From Planctomycetes bacterium syqfu (lineage in GTDB: Bacteria > Planctomycetota > Phycisphaerae > Phycisphaerales > Phycisphaeraceae): a DNA stretch of 64,000 nucleotides. The DNA is taken from NCBI GenBank assembly GCA_020974905.1, contig CP087563.1:1984001-2048000 (forward strand). Reading direction: 5' to 3'. A model generated the notes under the pieces. It saw only the letters and a program-made list of their open reading frames with translations, had not been told where the DNA came from and did no database searches. The translations under genes were made by a program, and so were the position numbers. Every line of letters starts with the position of its first letter. The first letter of the stretch is position 1. Below are positions 20,527 to 38,223 of this stretch, piece by piece.

Positions 20527-22302
20527 TTAAGCTGCCGACTCTTCAACCGACTCTGATTGCTTAAGCCACTTGTTGAGAATACCGCGTAAAGCAAGCAGTT
20601 TGACCGGCTTGGCCATGAAGTCGTTCATGCCGACATCCAAGCAGCGTTCGCGGTCCGGGGGCAAGGCATTGGCGGTCATGGCAACGATCGGTAATTGGTC
20701 AGCAGTGAAGTGCTCACGAATCACCTGCGTGGCCTCATAGCCATCCATCACCGGCATCTGACAGTCCATCAAGATCAGGTCATAGTGACTGCTGCTGACC
20801 AGCTTCACCGCTTCCTGACCATGTGGAGCCATGTCCACCTGACAGCCGAGTTTCTGAAGCATCACACGGGCGACGCGCTGGTTGATCACGTTATCCTCAA
20901 CCACGAGCACCTGTGCATTGAACTGATCCGGGCCAACCTGTTGCTTGACTTCGCTGATGGCTTGTTCGTCGGAGACAACGTTGACAGGAATGTTGAACTT
21001 GAATTGTGAGCCTTCGCCTTCAACACTTTGCACGCTGATTTGACCGTTCATCAGGTCGACAATTTTTCGTGAGATCGCCAAGCCCAAACCTGTGCCACCA
21101 AACTTGCGCGTGGTGGAAATATCCGCTTGCGTGAACATGCAAAACAGATTGCCAATCACGTCCTTGCTGATACCGATACCGGTGTCCGTTACCGAGACGT
21201 TCAAATCACATTGACCTTGATGTCCGGGCAATTGGTTAGCTGTTGCATGCAGACAAATCGTACCGCGATGGGTGAATTTGGTGGCATTGGATGCCAGGTT
21301 CAAAACGACCTGACGCAAGCGTACCGGATCGACCAGGATATAGCGTGGGACATTTTCATCGATACGTATTTCAAAGCTGTTGCCGTTCTCTTCGGTCTTG
21401 GGTTGCAGGATCAGACGGACATCTTCAAGCAACGTCGTCAGATCACAGGTGACCGGCTCAAGGGTCATCTTGCCTGCATCAAGCTTGGAAAAATCGAGGA
21501 TATCATCAATGATGGAAAGCAATGCATCACCGCTGCGCTGCACGGTTTGGACATAGCCGCGTTGCTGGTCATTCAGTGGCGTGGTCAGCAGGACATCGGT
21601 CATGCCGATGATGCCGTTCATGGGTGTCCGAATTTCATGACTCATGGTGGACAGGAACTCCGTGCGACTCTTGGCAGCCTGCTCAGCCTGATTCTTGGCT
21701 TTGGCAAGATCATCATTGACACCAAGCAGTTGATCGTGAATATGCTTGAGTTCAAGTGTTCGTTGCTCAACCATCTGTTCCAGTTCACCGCGTTTGAGTG
21801 CCGCTTCGGTTGCCAGGTTCCAACGTTTGGTGAGTGCTGCTGCCAATTGTTTGACTTCGACAACGTCGAATGGTTTTTTGAGAATCAGCAGATGATCGGT
21901 ATCGCCTAATTGCCGAACCATGTCGTCCCATGAGTGATCCGAATAGGCGGTGCAGATCACGCAAAGCAGGTTTGAATCCACTTCCCAGAGATGTTTGATG
22001 GTTTGAACACCATCCCATCCCGGGGGCATGCGCATATCCACAAAGGCCATGGCATAGGGCATGTCGTCGGCCTTGGCCTGTCTCACCTTTTCCATCGCTT
22101 CCTGACCTTGCATGGCAGAATCGACCACGTACTTACGTGCAACATCTTCGCTGGTGTTCACTTTGATCTGCAGGAGCGCTTCCAAGGCACCGCCCTTGAT
22201 CTGTCCGGGTCTGGACGCACACTGCAGAATCTTACGGAAGTCCGTATGAATCGCCTGGTTGTCATCAACAATCAGAATGCGGTTATTAAAGTCCTTGTCC
22301 AA
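20527..22302 (-). CDS. Hybrid histidine kinase, REC-HisKA-HATPase-REC
   Basis: A 591-residue soluble signalling protein. Residues 8-160 are a receiver (ILIVDDNQ; phospho-acceptor in FVDMRMP). A coiled coil follows, then HisKA with FLSTMSHEIRTPMNG (His near residue 223) and an ATPase domain (NLASNATKF, DTGIGIS, FGGTGLGLAIS). A second receiver runs from VLVVEDNVINQRVAR to LMDCQMPVMDG near residues 460-580. There are no membrane segments, so input comes through the first receiver. The start is a TTG with AAGGAG six bases upstream; no ATG is suitably placed. It is alone on this strand before fabI. The partner is unknown. Confidence 0.93.
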   Translation of the reverse strand: MDKDFNNRILIVDDNQAIHTDFRKILQCASRPGQIKGGALEALLQIKVNTSEDVARKYVVDSAMQGQEAMEKVRQAKADDMPYAMAFVDMRMPPGWDGVQTIKHLWEVDSNLLCVICTAYSDHSWDDMVRQLGDTDHLLILKKPFDVVEVKQLAAALTKRWNLATEAALKRGELEQMVEQRTLELKHIHDQLLGVNDDLAKAKNQAEQAAKSRTEFLSTMSHEIRTPMNGIIGMTDVLLTTPLNDQQRGYVQTVQRSGDALLSIIDDILDFSKLDAGKMTLEPVTCDLTTLLEDVRLILQPKTEENGNSFEIRIDENVPRYILVDPVRLRQVVLNLASNATKFTHRGTICLHATANQLPGHQGQCDLNVSVTDTGIGISKDVIGNLFCMFTQADISTTRKFGGTGLGLAISRKIVDLMNGQISVQSVEGEGSQFKFNIPVNVVSDEQAISEVKQQVGPDQFNAQVLVVEDNVINQRVARVMLQKLGCQVDMAPHGQEAVKLVSSSHYDLILMDCQMPVMDGYEATQVIREHFTADQLPIVAMTANALPPDRERCLDVGMNDFMAKPVKLLALRGILNKWLKQSESVEESAA

Positions 22303-22620: not shown

Positions 22621-23412
22621 TTACAGCCCGACGATGCTAAAGCCAGCATCAACGTGAATGTTTTCGCCGGTCACACCAGTCGACAGATCGCTGACCAGAT
22701 AAACTGCCGTGCCACCAACTTCTTCGCCGGTGATGTTGCGCTTCATGGCAGCCTTGCGTTCCTGGTGTTCGAACATGTCGGAGATGCCACCGACCGCCGA
22801 TGCTGCCAGGGTTCGCAGCGGACCGCCGGAGATGGTGTTGACGCGAATCTTGTTTTCGCCTTCACCCAGGTCAAAGGCCAGGTACTTGGCGGTATGCTCC
22901 AAAGCGGCCTTGGCGATACCCATGATGTTGTAACCGGGGACAACCTTTTCGCCACCGTAATAACTCATGGCAAGAATACTGCCACCGTCGGGCATGATGT
23001 CCTTGGCACGCTGTCCCATGGCAAGCAGTGAGTAAGCGCTGATGTCCATGGCCTGAGCCCATGCCTCGCGGGTGGTCTTGTGGAAGTTTCCGAGCTTGAG
23101 GAATTCACGATCGGCAAAGGCGACGGCGTGGATCACGAAATCGATCTTGCCAAAATCTGCCTTGAGCTTATCGAAAACGGCATCGAGATCTTCATCCTTG
23201 GACACATCGCAGGGCATCAGCCAGGGATCGGAAATACCCAACTCTTCAACGGCGCTGCGGCAGCGACGTTCCATCTTGCCCTTGGGATCGGGTAAATGCG
23301 TAAAGGCACATTCGGCTCCGTGAGCGATCAATTCCTTGGTGATGAACCATGCATAGCTGCGGTCATTGGCGATACCGAATACAATGCCACGTTTGCCGTC
23401 AAGTAAACCCAT
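22621..23412 (-). CDS. fabI: Enoyl-[acyl-carrier-protein] reductase (NADH), FabI
   Basis: The last reducing enzyme of each fatty-acid elongation cycle; it reduces trans-2-enoyl-ACP with NADH. The 263-residue protein is an SDR with the FabI-type loop KRGIVFGIANDRSYAW instead of the usual TGxxxGxG. The active site Tyr-X6-Lys occurs at residues 155-164 in SYYGGEKVVPGYNIMGIAKAAL (read as SYYGGEKVVPGYN then IMGIAKAAL). IRVNTISGGPLRTLAA is the conserved loop near the substrate. GGAG nine bases before the ATG fits. It is monocistronic with its own terminator. No inhibitor-resistance change was assessed. Confidence 0.97.
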   Translation of the reverse strand: MGLLDGKRGIVFGIANDRSYAWFITKELIAHGAECAFTHLPDPKGKMERRCRSAVEELGISDPWLMPCDVSKDEDLDAVFDKLKADFGKIDFVIHAVAFADREFLKLGNFHKTTREAWAQAMDISAYSLLAMGQRAKDIMPDGGSILAMSYYGGEKVVPGYNIMGIAKAALEHTAKYLAFDLGEGENKIRVNTISGGPLRTLAASAVGGISDMFEHQERKAAMKRNITGEEVGGTAVYLVSDLSTGVTGENIHVDAGFSIVGL

Positions 23413-23533
23413 TATCTGTTCTCCATAGTTGCTATTTGGAAGCCAGATAGTTTACATTCAATCCGCACATTTTGCATATCGGGCTGTCTAAAACCGCTAG
23501 CGATTCAGGTCGATCGACAAAGCATGGGAAAAT

Positions 23534-24438
23534 TCAAACATAGCCCAACTCGCGGAGCATCGCCCCCCCTAACTCCATGAACACCGCTTCAGACTTCTCA
23601 TCGAAATGATTCTTCCAATCGCCGGTGACCCCTTTTCGGAAGAAGCTGCCCCGATCTTCCTCCCCCCCTTTGCGCCCCTTGGCCAGATTCTTGAAGGACG
23701 CTGCTTCCAGGCACTGCTGCACGGCAGTCTCGTTGGCATCGACACCTAGAAACTGGAACAATCGCGTGGTCACATCCGGGGCATCGGCGTGGAGGTCTTC
23801 ATATTTGAGTTCGAAATAGCGATCGGGAAACTGCTTGCCAAACGCACGGGCCTGATTGATGTAAGGAAGCCAGTGATGCTGAATCAGGTAACGGATGTAC
23901 GTGGGCATGTCCGGGAAATTCTGCTTGAATTTGTCACCTGAAAACCGAATGTTGTGAAACCAACCCGAGACCGCCACATCACGACCGTCACGGATGATCT
24001 GCACCACTTTGCAATTGGGGAAATACTTGTTGAGCACCGGCAAGGTCATCGCATGCTCCGGCGTCTTCTCTCCAATGAGTTTCACATCCGGCTTGTCTTT
24101 GATCCATGGGCTGACCAACGCACCGATGGCTGTGAGATACAGGTAATCCAGTTGCACCTGATTGAACATCAACTCATTGTGATCACCAAGTTGAGCGTTG
24201 CGGTATTTGATCTGTTCGTTGAAAGCACCAGCGCCTGATTCAGTGCTGGTGCAAGCACGTTGCCGAACACTGCCTCGCCGCGACAGATCATCTCCGGATG
24301 GTTGTCGAGAATTTTCTCAAGCCATGTCGTGCCGGACTTTTGGCAACCGACAACAAAAAAGAACTGTTTTTCCAGTACTTTTTTGATCTGGTCATGCAGT
24401 TGATCGTAAACGTGAATCAGGGATGTGCTTTGGGACAT
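23534..24438 (-). pseudogene. Sulfotransferase interrupted by a frameshift
   Basis: Two overlapping reading frames together make one sulfotransferase. The first (24438 down to 24169) carries the PAPS 5'-phosphosulfate loop FVVGCQKSGTTWLEKIL. The second (ending at 23534) carries the 3'-phosphate motif QIIRDGRDVAVSGWFH and the C-terminal RKGVTGDWKNHF. The homologous frame continues upstream of the second part as FNEQIKYRNAQLGDHNEL, so one base appears to be missing near 24215-24235. Intact enzymes move sulfate from PAPS to a sugar, lipid or protein hydroxyl. The gene starts 24 bases after the asparagine-synthetase-like gene, itself broken. A sequencing error is possible. Confidence 0.8.
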
Positions 24439-24461
24439 CAAGTTAATCTTTCTTTTTCAAT

Positions 24462-26816
24462 TCAATGCAATTCACAGCGGACCACCAGTGCAGCTTTGAC
24501 TTCCGAGAGATTGATCACCTGGTGACCGGCAATGGTGCCCAATGCTGCAATCTGCTGAAGCAAGGCCTGAACCTGCGCCTGTTCATTGGCTGCAAATGGG
24601 ATTAAGCAAACCAGTCGCTTGCCTGCATAGTGTTTAGCCTGGAGTTGATTGGCAATCTTATCCAGACCAATCATGATCGTCCCGGCGACCGCAAGCTCGC
24701 TGACTTGATCGGGTTGTTGCGTCTGCACCGGTCGGGTATTCGTCAAGGAAACAACCTGCGATTCCGGCCAATCATCAAGGGACAACATGCGGGTGACCGC
24801 CTTGCCGGATGCCTGAAAAACCCTTGAAAACCAGCCATTTTCGTCACCAACGAGTAACACATGATCGTCGGATTCAAAATGGTTAAACATATGATTGACC
24901 AGTCGGGTTTCGTTGAGAGTCTCCTGCTGCGTCATCAACGTCCCGCGGTGCCAATGGTGATCCTGCTCGCTGGCAGGAATCTGAAAACCGGCTGCTTCCA
25001 GGGGTAAGTCCGGCTGGATGTAGTCTGCGTATTTCTCACACCACTTGGTGAACATCAAGCTGTAAAACACCGGCATGGTGTGTTGCTGGGTGAACTGCCC
25101 TGCCTGCAAAAATGCCTGCCATTGTGGGTCGAAAAGCTGTTTGGTCCAGTTACGTGTCTGCGTGAACATTTGCCCGAGCTTGGGAGCTGCCTGCACAATC
25201 CATTGTCCCAGCGGTGGCGTAAAACCGCGCTTGGGTCGGTCGATGGCTTCGATCGGACCGTAGCGTTTAGCCAACTCAAAGAGAATCCATTTGTACTGAT
25301 TGCCCTGAACCTTCATGGATGTCGGCAGGGACAGCATGAAATTCACCACCCGCCAATCGAGCATCGGATTGCGCGCTTCAAGCGATGCTGCCATGGTCAT
25401 GCGTTCTTCAACACAGACAAGATAGTCGGGCAAATTGGTTTTGACGTCCGCGTAAAGTGCCTGATTTAACGTATCAAAATGCTTATGTCGCATCCAGAAT
25501 TCACCGACATGCGTGCTCCCGGTGACGGACTTGAGAAGCATCTGACGCATATCATTGGCATACATGCCTTGGCGTGCGCCGGGTCAGGGGAGCAGGTTGG
25601 TTCGCAACAGGTACGAGGCAAGGTGGTCCATGGAGGACGGCTTGATTTTGTCATTGGTGGTTGCCACCGCCCAGTTGTATCGGCCTTCGTAACCCGCAGC
25701 CAACTCATCACCGCCCTGCCCCGAGAGTACGACGGTGAGTTGTTCTCGACATAATTGAGCCAACCGTCGCATGGGGAACATCGCGAAGTTGGCAAAGGGT
25801 TCGTCGAAGTACGTCGATACATCATCGACCAGTTCAAGAAAGTCCCCCAGCGAGACCACTTTTTCGTTGTATTCACAACGGTGATGTGCTGCGGTCATTT
25901 TCGCATAGGGCAACTCGTTGAAGCGCGGATCGTCACTGTCAAAGCCAATGCTGAACGTCTTGAGAGGGACATTGCCCATGGCTTTGGCTGCCATCGCGGT
26001 CATGAGTGTGGAATCAATGCCACCGGAAAGTAGACACCCAAACGGTACGTCCGCAATGAGTCGTTTTTGCACCGCATCACTGAGTAGTTCATCAAGCTGA
26101 TCAATCGCCTGCATCGGATCACTGGGAACGTCCACCGGTGAGTAATCCCAGTAACTGCAAATCGTATGTTCCCAACTGGCAGCATCAAGTTTGAGACTGC
26201 AACCAGCGGGGAGTTTGTGAATGTTCTTGAAAATGGTTCGCGGCGAGAGAATGTAGCCACGTGCAAAATACTGATCGATGGCAATGGGATCGAGGAGAAA
26301 TTTACGTTCCAGAAATCGAAGAATGGCCTTGAGTTCGCTGGCAAAAACGCAGCATTGATCGTCCTTGAACCAATACAAGGGTTTTTGCCCCAGGCGATCT
26401 CGGGCCATGATCAACGTTCGCGCCATGGTGTCCCAATGGGCAAAGGCAAACATGCCATTAAAATGTTCAAGGGCATCAAGTCCATCAACATTCAGCAGCT
26501 TGAAAAGGACTTCGGTATCGCAGGCGGTTTCGATGGATAGACCACGTTTTTTACAGGTCTGCTGGAGCTGCTGGAAATTGTAGATTTCGCCGTTGTAGAC
26601 CAGTGAATACCGGTCATTGACCATGGGTTGCTGACCATGTGACAGGTCCAGAACACTTAGTCGGCGATGCGCCAGACCAACGCCACCTGAGGCATCAAGC
26701 CAGAGTCCCGATTCATCCGGGCCGCGATGGGCAAGGGTTTCGCGAGCTGCAACCAGACGCGACCGATCCACAGCCTGGTCGGGGTTTTTGAAGATGACTC
26801 CGACAAATCCACACAT
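24462..26816 (-). pseudogene. asnB-like: Asparagine-synthetase-like amidotransferase with an in-frame stop codon and extra C-terminal domain
   Basis: The gene reads as one frame of 784 codons broken by a single TGA at 25584-25586. Before it: Cys-2 glutaminase (MCGFVGVIF, HRGPDESG, LVYNGEIYN) and the ATP-pyrophosphatase loop LLSGGIDSTLM with LSGQGGDELAAGYEGRY. After it: MYANDMRQMLL, EERMTMAASLEARNPMLD and RPKRGFTPPL, all family sequence, so the stop is a nonsense change or an error. The last ~170 residues lie beyond the normal family end and include DHVLLVGDENGWFSRVF, a Rossmann-like loop. Homologues in surface-glycan loci amidate unknown targets. It is co-directional with the broken sulfotransferase. 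Confidence 0.82.
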
Positions 26817-26871
26817 ATTGGAGTTATCGGTCGGTGATGCGATGGAAGATGAAAATCCCGCGGATTTGGGA

Positions 26872-26976
26872 TTTGGGATTTCTATCCCAGTGTAAACCGC
26901 AAGCGGTTTTTAAATCCGAAATCCGAAATCCAAAATCCGAAATTTCCAATCTACTCCCTACTCCCTACTCCCCCAC
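26872..26976. repeat. Seven-base tandem repeats in opposite orientation plus ACTCCCT repeats
   Basis: GGATTTG is repeated about three times (GGATTTGGGATTTGGGATTT), followed after ~35 bases by the opposite-strand version AAATCCGAAATCCGAAATCC and AAAATCCGAAAT. They can pair into a long imperfect hairpin with an ACCGCAAGCGGT palindrome in the loop. CTACTCCCTACTCCCTACTC follows at once. No gene is present in the 349-base gap 26817-27165. Confidence 0.75.
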
Positions 26977-26982
26977 GGATCA

Positions 26983-27021
26983 TAAAAAAGCAACCCGGTG
27001 TTGCGGATCACCGGGTTGCTG
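26983..27021 (-). terminator. Second terminator downstream of flagellin 1
   Basis: The stem AGCAACCCGGTG/CACCGGGTTGCT, an eight-base loop and a minus-strand TTTTTT tail form a strong terminator. It may back up the one at 27064-27099. Confidence 0.85.
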
Positions 27022-27063
27022 GAAACACGTTTGAATTGTCGAATCACTGCCCTCACTGGAGAA

Positions 27064-27099
27064 TAAAAACGGAGCGAGGGTCGTCCGGACCCTCGCTCC
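27064..27099 (-). terminator. Rho-independent terminator of flagellin 1
   Basis: The perfect stem GGAGCGAGGGTC/GACCCTCGCTCC has a five-base loop and is followed on the minus strand by GTTTTTATT. It lies 66 bases after the flagellin stop codon. Confidence 0.9.
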
Positions 27100-27165
27100 T
27101 GCATCAGTGATCGGATGCCCGCGGGACTGCGGACATGCCTAAGACTGTGACGTATACCCTGATGA

Positions 27166-28662
27166 TTAGCCAAGCAGTGAGAGCACGGAGTTCGGCTGCT
27201 GATTGGCAATACCAAGGACGTTGGTCGATGCGTTAACGAGGATCTGGCTACGTGTGAGTTCGGCGGTTTCGGCAGCAAAGTCGGTATCGCGGATGCTGCT
27301 TTCGGCGGCCGAGGTATTTTCAAGAGCGACGCCCAAGTTACGTGAGGTGGCACCAATCACATTGGATTGGAAGGCACCAATGCGCCCACGCAGATTGGAG
27401 ACGGAACTGATGGCAATGTTGACGATCTTCTGGGCAACTTCAAGGTCACCGTCGACCAGGTTGGCTTGGTTACCTGAGCCCAGGTCGTTGAGGAAACCGA
27501 TGTCACTGTCGCCAAGCTTACGGGCAGCAACGTTCTGGATGCCGATCGAAGCCTGATTGGTGATATTGACTTGCGGTCCAAGGTTGAACTTGGCACCACC
27601 GCCGGTGATGGTAAAGGCACTGATGGTGGCCTGTGATTGTGCACCCGCTTCAGTGAGTTCAATTTCCATATCCAGGAAGTCAGTTGCAATGCGTGCGGTA
27701 CGACCATCACTGGTGGCAGCAATACCGTTGATAATGGCTCCCACGTCCTGGCCTGCGTCACGAATGGGGTTATTGACGTTGGCAAAGGTGGTACCTGCAC
27801 CGGTATCTGCCGTGTTTTCGTCGATGGTTGACAGCGTGAAGACACTGCCTGCCTGACCGCCCTGATTGACGATGTCAAAGGAGACGAATTCGTTGGTGCC
27901 GTATTCGGTGCTCTTGACGACCAGGCCTGTGCCTGAGGTCGCAGCGGAGACACCGGTGGTTGCCTTGAAAGTGTTGATGGCTTCGGCGATGGATGCCAGC
28001 GTGGTGCCTGATGCAAAGGAGAATTCGCGACTCCCCTTGGAACCGGCAATTTCGAAGGTGAAAATATCGCTGCTCGAAGCCAGGTCCAATGCACCGTTGG
28101 TCGACAGGAACAAGCCTGCGTGCTGGGCGGATGCTGTGACAACGACTTCGACATCGCGTGTTTCGTTGTGTGAAAGCTTGGCAGCATTGATCTGGAAGCT
28201 GTTGACCGTGGTGGCCTGGCCGGAGATGGTGAAGTCAAACGTACCATTAAGGAGTTTGACACCTTCAAAGCTGGTGGCTTCGGCAATACGATCGATGGTC
28301 TGAAGAATGGAGTCCACCTGAAGCTGGTTGGCTTCTTTTTCCTCGACGGACAAACCAGCATCATTTGCTGATTCACCGACAAGGCTCTGGACTTCCAGAA
28401 GCAGTGCGTTGATTTCCTGAAGACCGCCTTCGGCAATGTTCATCACCTGGTCGGCACGTTCAGTGTTGGTGATGGCTGCAGAGATGGCTGCCTTTTCAGA
28501 ACGCAGGTTTTCACTGGCGATCAGACCTGCGGGGTCATCCTTACCACGGTTGATGGCAAGGCCGGTGCTCAGACGCTCGAGACTGGTGTTCAGCGAGTTG
28601 TTCTGCTGGGTCAGAATCCGTTGCGAGATGAGCGAGTTAACGTTGGTGTTGATGCGACTCAT
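27166..28662 (-). CDS. fliC: Flagellin 1
   Basis: The filament protein of the flagellum, exported by the type III flagellar apparatus without a cleaved signal. The 498 residues show conserved N-terminal D0/D1 helices (SRINTNVNSLISQRIL, ERLSTGLAINRGKDDPAGLIAS) and the C-terminal D1/D0 (LRGRIGAFQSNVIGA, IRDTDFAAETAELTRSQIL, ending NSVLSLLG). The middle ~220 residues form the variable region and include a flagellin IN-type motif (REFSFASGTTLASIAEAINTF). CGGAGGA before the ATG at 28662 sets the start; a longer frame upstream is spurious. A second flagellin lies upstream on the same strand with its own terminator, so each has its own transcript. Confidence 0.95.
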   Translation of the reverse strand: MSRINTNVNSLISQRILTQQNNSLNTSLERLSTGLAINRGKDDPAGLIASENLRSEKAAISAAITNTERADQVMNIAEGGLQEINALLLEVQSLVGESANDAGLSVEEKEANQLQVDSILQTIDRIAEATSFEGVKLLNGTFDFTISGQATTVNSFQINAAKLSHNETRDVEVVVTASAQHAGLFLSTNGALDLASSSDIFTFEIAGSKGSREFSFASGTTLASIAEAINTFKATTGVSAATSGTGLVVKSTEYGTNEFVSFDIVNQGGQAGSVFTLSTIDENTADTGAGTTFANVNNPIRDAGQDVGAIINGIAATSDGRTARIATDFLDMEIELTEAGAQSQATISAFTITGGGAKFNLGPQVNITNQASIGIQNVAARKLGDSDIGFLNDLGSGNQANLVDGDLEVAQKIVNIAISSVSNLRGRIGAFQSNVIGATSRNLGVALENTSAAESSIRDTDFAAETAELTRSQILVNASTNVLGIANQQPNSVLSLLG

Positions 28663-29142
28663 GGTGTCGGTCCTCCGTGATCTTTTTGAGCACATTGCTC
28701 GTTGTTATGTCCGGCATCCATGCCTTGAACGTTTGTCCCGAATCACTCCGATCCGTACTGATGCGTGTACACAGAACTCTGAAAACAAGCGGCCGGCCGT
28801 GACCTGCTGGTGTGACTGACTGCGTGAGCTTTTGTTTCTTTTTGTCTAGCTCAGTGACAGGGTCAGAGACCAGTTTGTTTTTTCGAATCCTGAGAACTCT
28901 CGTTCCGCTACTGTTTTTCGGGAAGTCACGGGCAAAACAGCCAGCGTCCGTTTTGAAAGTTTCTTATCGGACCACGTCAAGTCCGAATTCGTTTTATCAA
29001 CAACACCTCACAAAGCAAAAAGCCTGAAAAACAAGCTGTTTTTTAATATTGACACGAACAAACGCGCAACTGAACACAATAAAAGAAACGGTATCTGAAA
29101 ACATCGGTTTTGGTCTGATAATTACAAAACCGCATGGTGCGC
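28663..29142. other. Upstream region of flagellin 1
   Basis: The 552-base gap between the flagellins holds the flagellin 2 terminator and about 480 bases of likely promoter and leader DNA. A minus-strand TCCGATAA at 28964-28971 resembles a sigma-28 -10 element but lacks a matching -35. No gene is supported. Confidence 0.4.
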
Positions 29143-29214: not shown

Positions 29215-30705
29215 TTATCCGAGCAGACCCAGAACAGATTGCGGGCGGGCGTTGGACATGGCCACCACATTCGTTGCCGCGGAGACCAGAATCTGGCTAC
29301 GGGTCAGGGATGCAGTTTCTTCAGCAAAGTCGGTATCGCGGATGGCGGATTCGGCTGCTGAGGTGTTTTCGTAAGCAATGTTCAACGAGTTAATGGTTGC
29401 ACCAATCACGTTTGACTGCACTGACCCCAGGCGTCCACGCATCTTGGAGACCTGGTCGATGGCATTGTCGACGATTTTCTGGGCATCGTCGAGATTATCG
29501 CTAAGCAGCGAGTTGGTGCCACCGGAGGCCAGTGTGTCCAGATAACCATCCGTGGAGTTACCAATGTTACGAGCAGCCATGTTCTGCATACCGATGCGGA
29601 TCTGGTTGCCGATGTTGACATCCGGGCCAATATTGAAGGTCGCCCCACCGCCGGTGATGGTCAGTGCGTTGACGGCACCGGTTGCAGTTGCCTGTGCAGT
29701 GGTCAGGGTCATTTCCATGTCCAGACCTTCACTGCTGACGGTCAATTCCTTACCGTTACCACGTGCGGTGATACCGTTGACGGCAGCGGTGACATCCTGA
29801 CCTTCGTCGCGAACAGCGGCGGTGACTGCGGTAAAGGCGGTGCCCCCACCGGTGTCTGCCGTGTTTTCGTCGATGGTTGACAAGGTGTAGACACCACCGG
29901 CCTGGCCGGCGGCATTGGTGACATTGAAGGACACGAAGTCATCTGAACCATAACCGGTGCTCTTGATGACGACGCCGGTGCCTGATGTGGCAGCGGAAAC
30001 GCCGGTGACATCCTTGAACTGGTTGATGGCGGTGACCATCTGGGCCTGGGTGGTACCGGAAGCGAAGCTGAATTCGCGGGTACCTTCTTTGCCGGCGATT
30101 TCGACGACGAAGCTGTCGGTGGCATTGGTCAGGTCAAGCTGACCGCCGGTCGACAGGAACAGACCACCATGCTGAGCCGAAGCGGTGACAACGGCCTGAA
30201 CGGCGACGCTGCCATTGGCTTCGAACTTGGCGGCATTGATCTGATAGTCGCTGACCGCAACGCCGGAGACCTGGAAGTCCTGGCTACCGTTGAGAAGCTT
30301 CACGTCACCAAAGCTGGTGGTTGAAGAGATACGGTCGATGGTCTGAAGAATCTGGTCAACCTGGAACTGGTTGGCTTCTTTTTCTTCCGTGGACAGACCG
30401 GTGTCGTTGGCGGTTTCGCTGACGAGGCCTTGCAATTCCGTAAGCAGGCTCTGCATTTCGTTGAGGCCACCTTCAGCGATGTTGATGACCTGGTCGGCGC
30501 GTTCGGCGTTACCGATTGCGGCCGTGATTTTTTCCTGGTCAGAGCGAAGTTTTTCGCTGGCGATCAAACCTGCGGGGCCGTCGGCACCACGATTGATCTT
30601 CAGACCGGTGCTCAAGCGTTCGAGTGAAGTGCTCAAGCTCTTGTTGTTTTGGGTCAGAATACGCTGACCGATGAGTGAACTGACGTTGGTGTTGATTGTA
30701 GTCAT
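29215..30705 (-). CDS. fliC: Flagellin 2
   Basis: A second flagellin of 496 residues, a paralogue of flagellin 1. The N-terminal helices read TTINTNVSSLIGQRIL and ERLSTGLKINRGADGPAGLIAS, and the C-terminus ASKMRGRLGSVQSNVIGA-like and ends ARPQSVLGLLG. The variable middle shares the same layout as flagellin 1 (ASAQHGGLFLSTGGQLDL, REFSFASGTTQAQMVTAI, LSTIDENTADTGGGT), so the pair arose by duplication. GGGAG nine bases before the ATG at 30705 sets the start. Two flagellins may build different filament segments or be expressed under different conditions. The long leader (see 30889-30922) is structured. Confidence 0.95.
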   Translation of the reverse strand: MTTINTNVSSLIGQRILTQNNKSLSTSLERLSTGLKINRGADGPAGLIASEKLRSDQEKITAAIGNAERADQVINIAEGGLNEMQSLLTELQGLVSETANDTGLSTEEKEANQFQVDQILQTIDRISSTTSFGDVKLLNGSQDFQVSGVAVSDYQINAAKFEANGSVAVQAVVTASAQHGGLFLSTGGQLDLTNATDSFVVEIAGKEGTREFSFASGTTQAQMVTAINQFKDVTGVSAATSGTGVVIKSTGYGSDDFVSFNVTNAAGQAGGVYTLSTIDENTADTGGGTAFTAVTAAVRDEGQDVTAAVNGITARGNGKELTVSSEGLDMEMTLTTAQATATGAVNALTITGGGATFNIGPDVNIGNQIRIGMQNMAARNIGNSTDGYLDTLASGGTNSLLSDNLDDAQKIVDNAIDQVSKMRGRLGSVQSNVIGATINSLNIAYENTSAAESAIRDTDFAEETASLTRSQILVSAATNVVAMSNARPQSVLGLLG

Positions 30706-30885
30706 TTGAGTTTTCTCCCAGGGCTGGTGGCGATGGCAACCATGACACGATGAACCTTTCGAGTTACTTAAGTGAGTCCAGTGTTGCCTTTTCTTCGAGT
30801 CTTGATCGCCAGGAGCCTCCTGTTGGTAAAGACGACCCTGTCTAAGTTTCATCCAACAACGCCCGGGGCCTCCGCCCGTAACGCC

Positions 30886-35951: not shown

Positions 35952-35987
35952 AGCTAGAGCAGTTCAATTAATCCATCTCTATTTTCC

Positions 35988-36071
35988 GTCACTCCCGCGA
36001 AGGCGGGAGTCCAGTGAGAACTGCAAGTGTCAACAGAATGCCACTGGATTCCCGCCTTCGCGGGAATGACG
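35988..36071. repeat. REPIN-like repeat, copy 2
   Basis: CGTCACTCCCGCGAAGGCGGG and TCCCGCCTTCGCGGGAATGACG are two palindromic units facing each other, separated by a ~40-base spacer with TCCAGTG and CCACTGGA. This is a well-preserved copy. Confidence 0.88.
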
Positions 36072-36140
36072 AAACGGACGGTAGCACAGAGATTCATCCT
36101 TTGAAGTGCTCTACAGGCAAACAAACGCAACAAGTAAAAC

Positions 36141-36175
36141 AAAAAACACCGCGTCGATGGATGCGGTGTTTTTTA
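36141..36175. terminator. Bidirectional terminator between the CE2-like gene and the GT-REC gene
   Basis: The stem AAAACACCGC/GCGGTGTTTT with a ten-base loop has A and T runs on both sides, so it can end both convergent genes. Confidence 0.85.
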
Positions 36176-36200: not shown

Positions 36201-37436
36201 CTACTCGTCGGACTGTTCGCGTTTTTCGATGTCCTGAATGTAGGCCATGGTGCGGTCGAGTTCACGCTTAAGGTGACGGACACGCAACAGTGATTTGACG
36301 CGGGTGAGCAGTTCGAGTTTGTTGACGGGCTTTGTGACGAAGTCATCGGTGCCGGACTCGACGCCGCGTTCGATGTCGCCCAACTCGTTAAGGGCGGTGA
36401 CCATCATGATCGGAATCGCGCGGGTGTTGGGGTCTTCCTTGAGTTTGGTGCAGACTTCAAAACCGCTCATCCGTGGCATCATCACGTCCAACAAAATCAA
36501 ATCGGGCATCGGTTCGTCGTTGTTCTCGATCCACTGCATGGCTTCCAAGCCGTCGTAGGCCACGAAGGTCTTGCAGCCGAGTTCTTCGAGATAGGCCTGC
36601 ATCAGTTCCACGTTCTGGGCGTTGTCATCAACAATGAGAATGGTGGAAGCGGAAAGGTCCATCTGGTCAGAAGCGTTTTCCTGGGCTGGTGTTTGTGATG
36701 TTGTATTCATATCTAGTTGATCCTCACAGATCGCATCAAGTTGTTCCCGTAACGCGATCAGGTCTGCATCATGCGTCTCCGTCAGGCGGTGTCGCAGTGA
36801 GGCAAGGTCCTCGGGGGTGTCTACGTCGTACCAATGTGCCCCACTTGCCAGATCAATCCCGGCGTCACGTGCTGCCTGAATCGTCTGATGGTACACGTTT
36901 GCGCTGCCCCAGTCGATCCCCATTAGCAATTGTGGGAAGAATTGGCTGGCGGCCAGCGTCCAATAACCACCGTCGGCAACAGGACCCACCACGGCGTCGG
37001 CACGGGTGAGAATCTGGATCATATTTTCCAGATCCACACGCGGCACATCCGGGCTATCCACGCCAAAGAACATCACCGGCCCTTTGCCGATGCGTCCCCA
37101 GACATATTCAAGTCGCTGACCAAGGTCACCATCGCCCTGGTCGAGCAATTCCCAGGGCTCATGAGGTAACGCACTGGGCCATGCCGCAGTACCACCATCG
37201 ACAGCCAGCCCGAAACGGACGGGGTAATCCTGAATTTGGCTGAAAATTTTCACTAACCGTGTCATGACACAGGACATGAGAGCTTGATGGATATCGGCCG
37301 CCTGCTGATCGGACAGCTCACCGATCAGGCGCGTCTTGACCTTGCCAGCCAAGGGAGGCCGGGTCATGACAATAATCCATAAAATCTTTTTTTCACCCAT
37401 CTTAGCGTCCAAACTGCCCTTTGGCCGACTGGTCAT
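36201..37436 (-). CDS. Fusion of DUF2064-type glycosyltransferase and response-regulator receiver domain
   Basis: Residues ~15-220 match the TIGR04282/DUF2064 glycosyltransferase-like family: IIVMTRPPLAGKVKTRLIG, FGVDSPDVPRVDLE, VGPVADGGYWTLA, YDVDTPEDLASL. Residues ~265-390 are a receiver domain: STILIVDDNAQNVELM, LILLDVMMPRMSGFEV (acceptor Asp) and DDFVTKPVNKLELL, with a coiled tail. No stop codon separates them. An internal ATG at 36710 with AGGA about ten bases upstream could start a separate receiver protein. The family is found near arsenosugar or glycan genes. No ribosome site helps choose the first start; codon 13 (MGEKK) is an alternative. Confidence 0.82.
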   Translation of the reverse strand: MTSRPKGSLDAKMGEKKILWIIVMTRPPLAGKVKTRLIGELSDQQAADIHQALMSCVMTRLVKIFSQIQDYPVRFGLAVDGGTAAWPSALPHEPWELLDQGDGDLGQRLEYVWGRIGKGPVMFFGVDSPDVPRVDLENMIQILTRADAVVGPVADGGYWTLAASQFFPQLLMGIDWGSANVYHQTIQAARDAGIDLASGAHWYDVDTPEDLASLRHRLTETHDADLIALREQLDAICEDQLDMNTTSQTPAQENASDQMDLSASTILIVDDNAQNVELMQAYLEELGCKTFVAYDGLEAMQWIENNDEPMPDLILLDVMMPRMSGFEVCTKLKEDPNTRAIPIMMVTALNELGDIERGVESGTDDFVTKPVNKLELLTRVKSLLRVRHLKRELDRTMAYIQDIEKREQSDE

Positions 37437-37749: not shown

Positions 37750-38223
37750 ATGACACAGAACCTCACACCTGCCCTACCCTGGCAAAATCGCTGGACAACA
37801 CCGACCCTCGAAAGCCTGCTTTCGCCGCTGAATCCTCAGCACAGCGCGGTCTTCACCGATTTGATGAAGGATCTGGAACAATACGAAGACGTCACCTACG
37901 AATTCCACTGGTACGGTCCGAGTTGGAACTGGACGCTGGAGTATTACTTCATCAATCCCAAGGCTAAGGACAAAAAAGGTTCGACGCTTTGCTACCTGGT
38001 CCCCAATGTCAACGGCCCGGTGGTCTGTGTGACGCTGGATGACGAGCAGATGGAAGCCATGCCGATGCGCCGTCTGAATCGTATGATCCGTGAAGCGCTC
38101 AAGAGTGCCAAGTCAGCGGTGCAACTGCACTGGTGTACCTGGACGCCCACCACCAATGCCGAAATCGGTCACCTGTCAGACTTGATCAAGCGCAAGCACA
38201 AGCTGGTCACCGGCGAGAAATAA
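37750..38223 (+). CDS. DUF3788-like hypothetical protein
   Basis: A 157-residue soluble protein with no signal or membrane segment. The pattern TYEFHWYGPSWNWTLEYYF followed by LCYLVPNVNGPVVCVTLDDEQ matches the layout of DUF3788 (YdjI/YoaU-like proteins): an aromatic-rich strand pair and a hydrophobic strand. It ends in HLSDLIKRKHKLV. The family's role is unknown; the fold resembles other small ligand-binding proteins. It stands alone, followed by a repeat-rich gap. Confidence 0.65.
   Translation: MTQNLTPALPWQNRWTTPTLESLLSPLNPQHSAVFTDLMKDLEQYEDVTYEFHWYGPSWNWTLEYYFINPKAKDKKGSTLCYLVPNVNGPVVCVTLDDEQMEAMPMRRLNRMIREALKSAKSAVQLHWCTWTPTTNAEIGHLSDLIKRKHKLVTGEK

Follow-up and report, generated by a model that had tools for sequence, protein, structure and literature searches.

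In Planctomycetes bacterium syqfu a nucleotide-sugar-transferase-like enzyme of the TIGR04282/DUF2064 type and a complete response-regulator receiver are encoded by one uninterrupted gene. Comparison with related genomes shows this gene to be one of several instances, in separate lineages of the Phycisphaerae, in which the border between two genes of an operon has been lost while the predicted active regions of both halves have been kept. The reading that we favour, and regard as reasonably probable, is that a two-gene operon became a single gene, that the enzyme is of the arsenosugar type and that the halves are tied by co-production and tethering. Coordinates refer to the stretch of 64,000 nucleotides that was analysed (the window).

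The fused gene and its domains

The fused gene lies on the minus strand (36201..37436) and is open for 411 codons without an internal stop. An earlier sequence-only reading had placed an enzyme and a whole receiver in a single stop-free frame, and this was borne out by matches to TIGR04282, PF09837 and PF00072. The TIGR04282/DUF2064 domain (36804..37376, minus strand; residues 21-211) matches its profile over the entire model (1-189 of 189) with 147.4 bits against a cut-off of 134, and the PF09837 match covers residues 73-178. The receiver (36294..36641, minus strand; residues 266-381) matches PF00072 over its full length (1-111 of 111; 98.2 bits, cut-off 30.2). A structure predicted from an alignment using 74 of 96 possible rows is confident for both domains (mean pLDDT 91.7, pTM 0.65), and residues 244-256 between them (36669..36707, minus strand) form a disordered linker with pLDDT below 50. 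Since residues 1-13 are weakly conserved and modelled with low confidence, translation may begin at M13 (37400), giving a protein of 399 amino acids.

Four enzyme motifs read from the alignment (GKVKTRL, GDLG.RL, FFG.DSPD.P and DGGYW) are present in the window protein as in its relatives. Across the ten fused loci found in the class 23 of 27 tallied motif positions are identical, and the other four deviate in one row each (three in genome G490, one in G040). The receiver site consists of the acidic pair D270/D271, D317, T347 and K369, invariant in nine aligned fused proteins and intact in all ten fused loci. We take D317 to be the phospho-acceptor and assume the customary roles for the remaining residues. 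The three aspartates are found in 53 of 53 pair loci (10/10 fused, 43/43 split) and the threonine and lysine in 52, the one remaining row (G292) ending early. Within the genus the nonsynonymous distance is well below the synonymous in both halves and lowest in the receiver, several of the synonymous values being near saturation. Judged by their sequences, both halves of the fusion look active.

Response regulators with enzymatic output domains, such as PleD and CheB, combine a receiver and an enzyme in one chain. Unlike regulators of this type, the window protein carries its enzyme at the N-terminus, the enzyme is of the sugar-nucleotide type and the linker is disordered. In sequence as well as in fold the solved receiver nearest to that of the window protein is PleD's, with DivK among the next, but PleD has two receivers and a GGDEF domain whereas the window protein has one receiver and no GGDEF match, and it scores 145 bits on the PleD model against a cut-off of 474, which places it outside PleD membership. 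For the enzyme half the closest solved structure is 3cgx (fold match with a TM score of 0.80 on the target), and its likeness to the TIGR04282 arsenosugar glycosyltransferase family lies in the whole-model match above the curated cut-off and in co-occurrence with ArsS. In the limited literature collection searched no paper was found on DUF2064 or on arsenosugars, ArsS and a glycosyltransferase together, and none described a role for this class-wide receiver. In the same collection, TIGR04282 surfaced only in metagenome work on soils and in work on an iodate reducer; titles and abstract openings revealed none on a receiver-glycosyltransferase fusion and, for response regulators of the Phycisphaerae, none on this receiver.

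Split and fused pairs and the origin of the fusion

Among 400 genomes of the order TIGR04282 was matched at 63 places in 61 genomes (E up to 1e-15). Forty-eight of these are of a compact type, and all 48 lie directly upstream of the receiver; the other 15 are of a larger type, with no receiver within 1.5 kb at the seven loci inspected (L009-L015). One larger-type locus (G045, L010:766-3027) joins GT2, TIGR04282 and TIGR04283 in a single frame of 753 amino acids and is a second fusion type of this enzyme family, the window enzyme being fused to a receiver instead. In the larger-type genome G004 a further, weak match to TIGR04282 (28 bits) just upstream of the receiver was left outside all counts. 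No TIGR04282 match other than the fused gene was found in the genome of the window.

The receiver is far more widespread. At E up to 1e-35 it occurs in 357 of the 400 genomes of the order; samples of the class and of the phylum contain it in 284 of 298 genomes (1e-30) and 45 of 246 genomes (1e-32), respectively. Twenty-eight of these last lie outside the class, and all 28 matched by the receiver part only, at a threshold that a weak pair could escape. The next best receivers in the genome of the window are just 36-37% identical, so that the fused gene holds its only close copy.

The sequence-only reading had suggested looking for the same fusion elsewhere, and it was found in three further genomes of the genus (G001, G002 and G003). 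All four genomes examined from the genus, the window's included, thus have the open frame; the other three proteins are 97, 85 and 72% identical to that of the window, and the codons flanking the junction vary. A TGA flagged in the G003 match is the first codon of that match, before the frame opens, and does not lie between the domains. In the nearest relative outside the genus (G019) the junction reads AAGGA-ATAG with an in-frame TAG, followed by two codons and then the receiver ATG in the same frame. The corresponding internal ATG of the window gene (M243; 36708..36710, minus strand) matches the receiver-start position of split relatives and would be the ancestral start codon of the receiver gene. 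These split relatives support the proposal that the halves were once neighbouring genes and that the border between them was lost. A stop separating the domains in relatives had been expected to count against the fusion; such relatives do exist outside the genus, and they show where the fusion came from without falsifying it.

In the order the 48 pair loci divide into 9 fused and 39 split; in 22 of the 39 split pairs (counted by eye) the receiver start codon lies in a four-base overlap with the enzyme stop. Five pairs from other orders (G490, fused; G458, G495, G400 and G418, split) bring the class total to 53, with 10 fused and 43 split. On a tree of both domains the fused or split label requires six changes, at least five of them forced by well-supported branches; such counts give no direction, the split state being the commoner one. 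The fused groups are the genus of the window, G012, G024 with G065, G040, G125 and G490. Split neighbours are well supported for the genus (G019), G040 (G052), G125 (G393) and G490 (G495); G012 groups with split rows with weak support, and G024 and G065 sit in an open fork. The fusion most likely arose through loss of the stop between the neighbouring genes, as this comparison suggests. Because such a loss gained only about three codons, an open frame is poor evidence that the fusion was selected for.

The internal ATG is preceded by a Shine-Dalgarno-like AGGA (36721..36724, minus strand) ten bases upstream, as had been noted from the sequence, and the same motif stands at identical spacing in G001, G002, G003 and the split G019. 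The anti-Shine-Dalgarno sequence was assumed to be the standard one, which may differ from the host's own, and the window's own internal ATGs served as background for scored sites in every genome. Of 415 internal in-frame ATGs in the window 4.6% pair as strongly as the internal ATG of the fused gene (-6.0) or more strongly, and of 26 ORF-start ATGs 15% do. The averages of the two sets (-1.9 for internal ATGs, -2.6 for ORF starts) lie so close together that the score is weak evidence here and settles little by itself. The receiver ATG is retained in 8 of 10 fused loci. In G490 it is replaced by a GTG with a Shine-Dalgarno-like site, in G012 the ATG is present without such a site, and in G065 the ATG has been lost and only GTGs are found, the one tested scoring weakly. 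An internal start with a Shine-Dalgarno-like site is thus present in 8 of 10 fused loci, the GTG of G490 included. G065 and G012 indicate that a free receiver is not required everywhere. In the genus of the window, because the old start and the site upstream of it persist, a free receiver is probably made besides the fusion, and so the suggestion that the receiver is also produced on its own may well hold there.

A scan for promoters found none within the fused frame on the coding strand, and upstream of the gene two promoter-like sites, one per strand, against 1.5 expected. A terminator-like hairpin (36141..36174, strand not assigned) containing a 20-base inverted repeat lies just past the gene. 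The hairpin scan reported 15 pairs for the form on the plus strand and just 5 for that on the strand of the gene; in our reading the hairpin would stop minus-strand transcription too. Also just past the gene, a 33-base inverted repeat with 91% complementarity (35984-36074) resembles a short interspersed palindrome.

The loss of the stop may have been neutral, a harmless by-product after which the halves work as before and an internally started free receiver does the signalling. The two codons that separate stop and ATG in G019 make such an event easy to envisage, and the internal starts kept in 8 of 10 fused loci would serve it. We nevertheless consider it rather unlikely, as the fusion has been retained in four species down to 72% identity, has arisen in several lineages and is kept in G065 though the ATG is absent. 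The single receiver match of G065 is in its fused gene, on which this genome seems to rely, suggesting that a tethered receiver is tolerated.

A probable tie between the halves

That the genes are constantly adjacent and have fused repeatedly speaks for a functional tie of some kind between enzyme and receiver. One form that this could take, which the sequence-only reading had raised, is a phospho-controlled enzyme, in which phosphorylation of D317 alters the receiver and so toggles the attached enzyme on or off. The unbroken adjacency at the 48 compact places of the order, the recurrence of fusion on the tree and the receiver aspartates present in every fused and split locus are all in keeping with such control. 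The model of the window protein points the other way: a pTM of 0.65 with both domains confident, taken with the disorder of the linker and read without an inter-domain error estimate, suggests no fixed domain arrangement, and a flexible linker argues in favour of tethering over a rigid switch. The linker also varies in length and sequence among fused proteins, and the receiver is present in 357 of 400 genomes of the order but TIGR04282 in only 61 of them. On balance we judge phospho-control of the enzyme to be unlikely, and co-production with tethering remains the favoured tie.

Association with ArsS and the gene neighbourhood

NCBI names TIGR04282 an arsenosugar-pathway glycosyltransferase, as a hypothetical equivalog. 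ArsS is reported to act early in arsenosugar synthesis (PMC8552651), and arsenic to be adenosylated by a radical-SAM enzyme (PMC12159101). The search for ArsS (TIGR04167) covered 51 genomes of the family and 80 genomes hand-picked before their ArsS status was known, which comprised pair genomes of any completeness and mostly well-covered genomes lacking the pair. After exclusion of 14 genomes with the larger TIGR04282 type, 117 genomes were tallied: 44 with both pair and ArsS, 10 with the pair only, 2 with ArsS only (G068 and G137) and 61 with neither (Fisher p 5.5e-20, kinship ignored). The association extends to a single genus in which G040 has both and G044, G048, G056 and G060 have neither. 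Two genomes, G013 and G014, entered the tally as pair genomes on the strength of an enzyme fragment at the end of a contig. The fragment of G014 is followed by the receiver on the same contig; in G013 no receiver was seen, the fragment and ArsS sharing one contig. Of the ten genomes with the pair only, in all of which ArsS was absent at the threshold, five are less than 90% complete (G023, G190, G292, G337 and G394), in three the motifs of the enzyme are wrecked (G033, G400 and G418, the last 88% complete) and two are well covered and have intact motifs (G024, which is fused, and G103).

The genome of the window has an ArsS gene of its own (G000:C1:168589-169536; 442 bits, cut-off 300), which lies about 1.85 Mb from the fused gene and is not clustered with it. 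This ArsS gene adjoins genes for a response regulator of the NarL type and a BarA-like hybrid kinase on the opposite strand (L183:5494-10369). The partner glycosyltransferase TIGR04283 was not found in this genome at E 1e-25. It exceeds its cut-off in only 16 of the 51 family genomes, all 16 with ArsS, and is therefore not a fixed companion. Taken together, the co-occurrence with ArsS and the adjacency at 48 of 48 compact places make it probable that the enzyme half belongs to the arsenosugar pathway and is tied to a core receiver. At L097, L161 and L162, loci of three genomes that gave no ArsS match, the receiver is still preceded by an enzyme half whose motifs are destroyed.

Around the pair, a divergent DUF3788 gene (37750..38223, plus strand) upstream of the fused gene is a conserved neighbour: within the flank examined, 37 of the 48 pair loci have it upstream on the opposite strand; it also adjoins some lone receivers. 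Downstream, beyond two other genes, the window contains two flagellin genes (27166..28695 and 29215..30852, both minus strand). The run from 22621 to 28695 (minus strand) comprises flagellin followed by genes for GATase/asparagine synthase, asparagine synthase, a sulfotransferase and a short-chain dehydrogenase, and has the appearance of an island for modifying flagellin or a surface glycan. Beyond it lies a histidine kinase of 591 amino acids with receiver domains (20527-22302, minus strand).

The enzyme half might accordingly serve flagellin or another surface glycan and not arsenosugars. Within about 9 kb downstream, flagellins are present at 19 of the 30 family f1 pair loci, several of the other loci being truncated by contig ends, and in the window they are followed by the asparagine-synthase-type and sulfotransferase genes. 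However, G005, G083 and G009, in which TIGR04282 gave no match, also have flagellins after their lone receiver; none was seen in the 0.5-6 kb examined downstream of the pair loci of families f3 and f5; and presence of the enzyme follows ArsS. A surface-glycan role is thus improbable, more so than phospho-control. The idea that the receiver serves flagella alone was likewise set aside, the receiver being present also in G073, G077 and G090, which have no flagellin match. Finally, the proposal that a sequencing or assembly error had deleted a stop codon, plausible only in that the split and fused states are a small change apart, is refuted by the three further assemblies (records PAIY01000186, DLCK01000066 and JAESSU010000038) that share the open frame with differing junction codons.

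Our preferred reading is therefore that of an operon turned into one gene with an arsenosugar-type enzyme. In the Phycisphaerae a TIGR04282 gene stands directly upstream of the gene for a nearly universal single-domain receiver. In the genus of the window, as the comparison shows, the enzyme stop has been lost, giving one protein with a short flexible linker between its halves, and the transcript would yield the fusion together with some free receiver. The enzyme half would be a nucleotide-sugar-type enzyme of the ArsS arsenosugar pathway, as its family name and co-occurrence suggest, while D317 would be phosphorylated by an unlinked kinase and the receiver would keep its class-wide role while tethered. 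Co-production and tethering would most likely constitute the tie, with allosteric control possible. A more far-reaching idea, which we hold to be doubtful, is that the TIGR04282 half and the core receiver control each other, either as a phospho-gated enzyme or through a substrate-sensing enzyme half that sets the receiver. A non-catalytic role of the enzyme half would fit the retention of wrecked halves in three genomes where ArsS was not matched, G033, G400 and G418.

What is newly seen here is that the enzyme half tracks ArsS and that every compact TIGR04282 place in the order directly precedes the receiver. Through this strong co-occurrence an enzyme family that is uncharacterised becomes linked to the ArsS pathway, and recurrent fusion with fixed adjacency makes a concrete case for a connection between arsenosugar chemistry and two-component signalling. 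If mutual control were true, the synthesis of arsenic sugars would be wired into a core signalling receiver of the Phycisphaerae.
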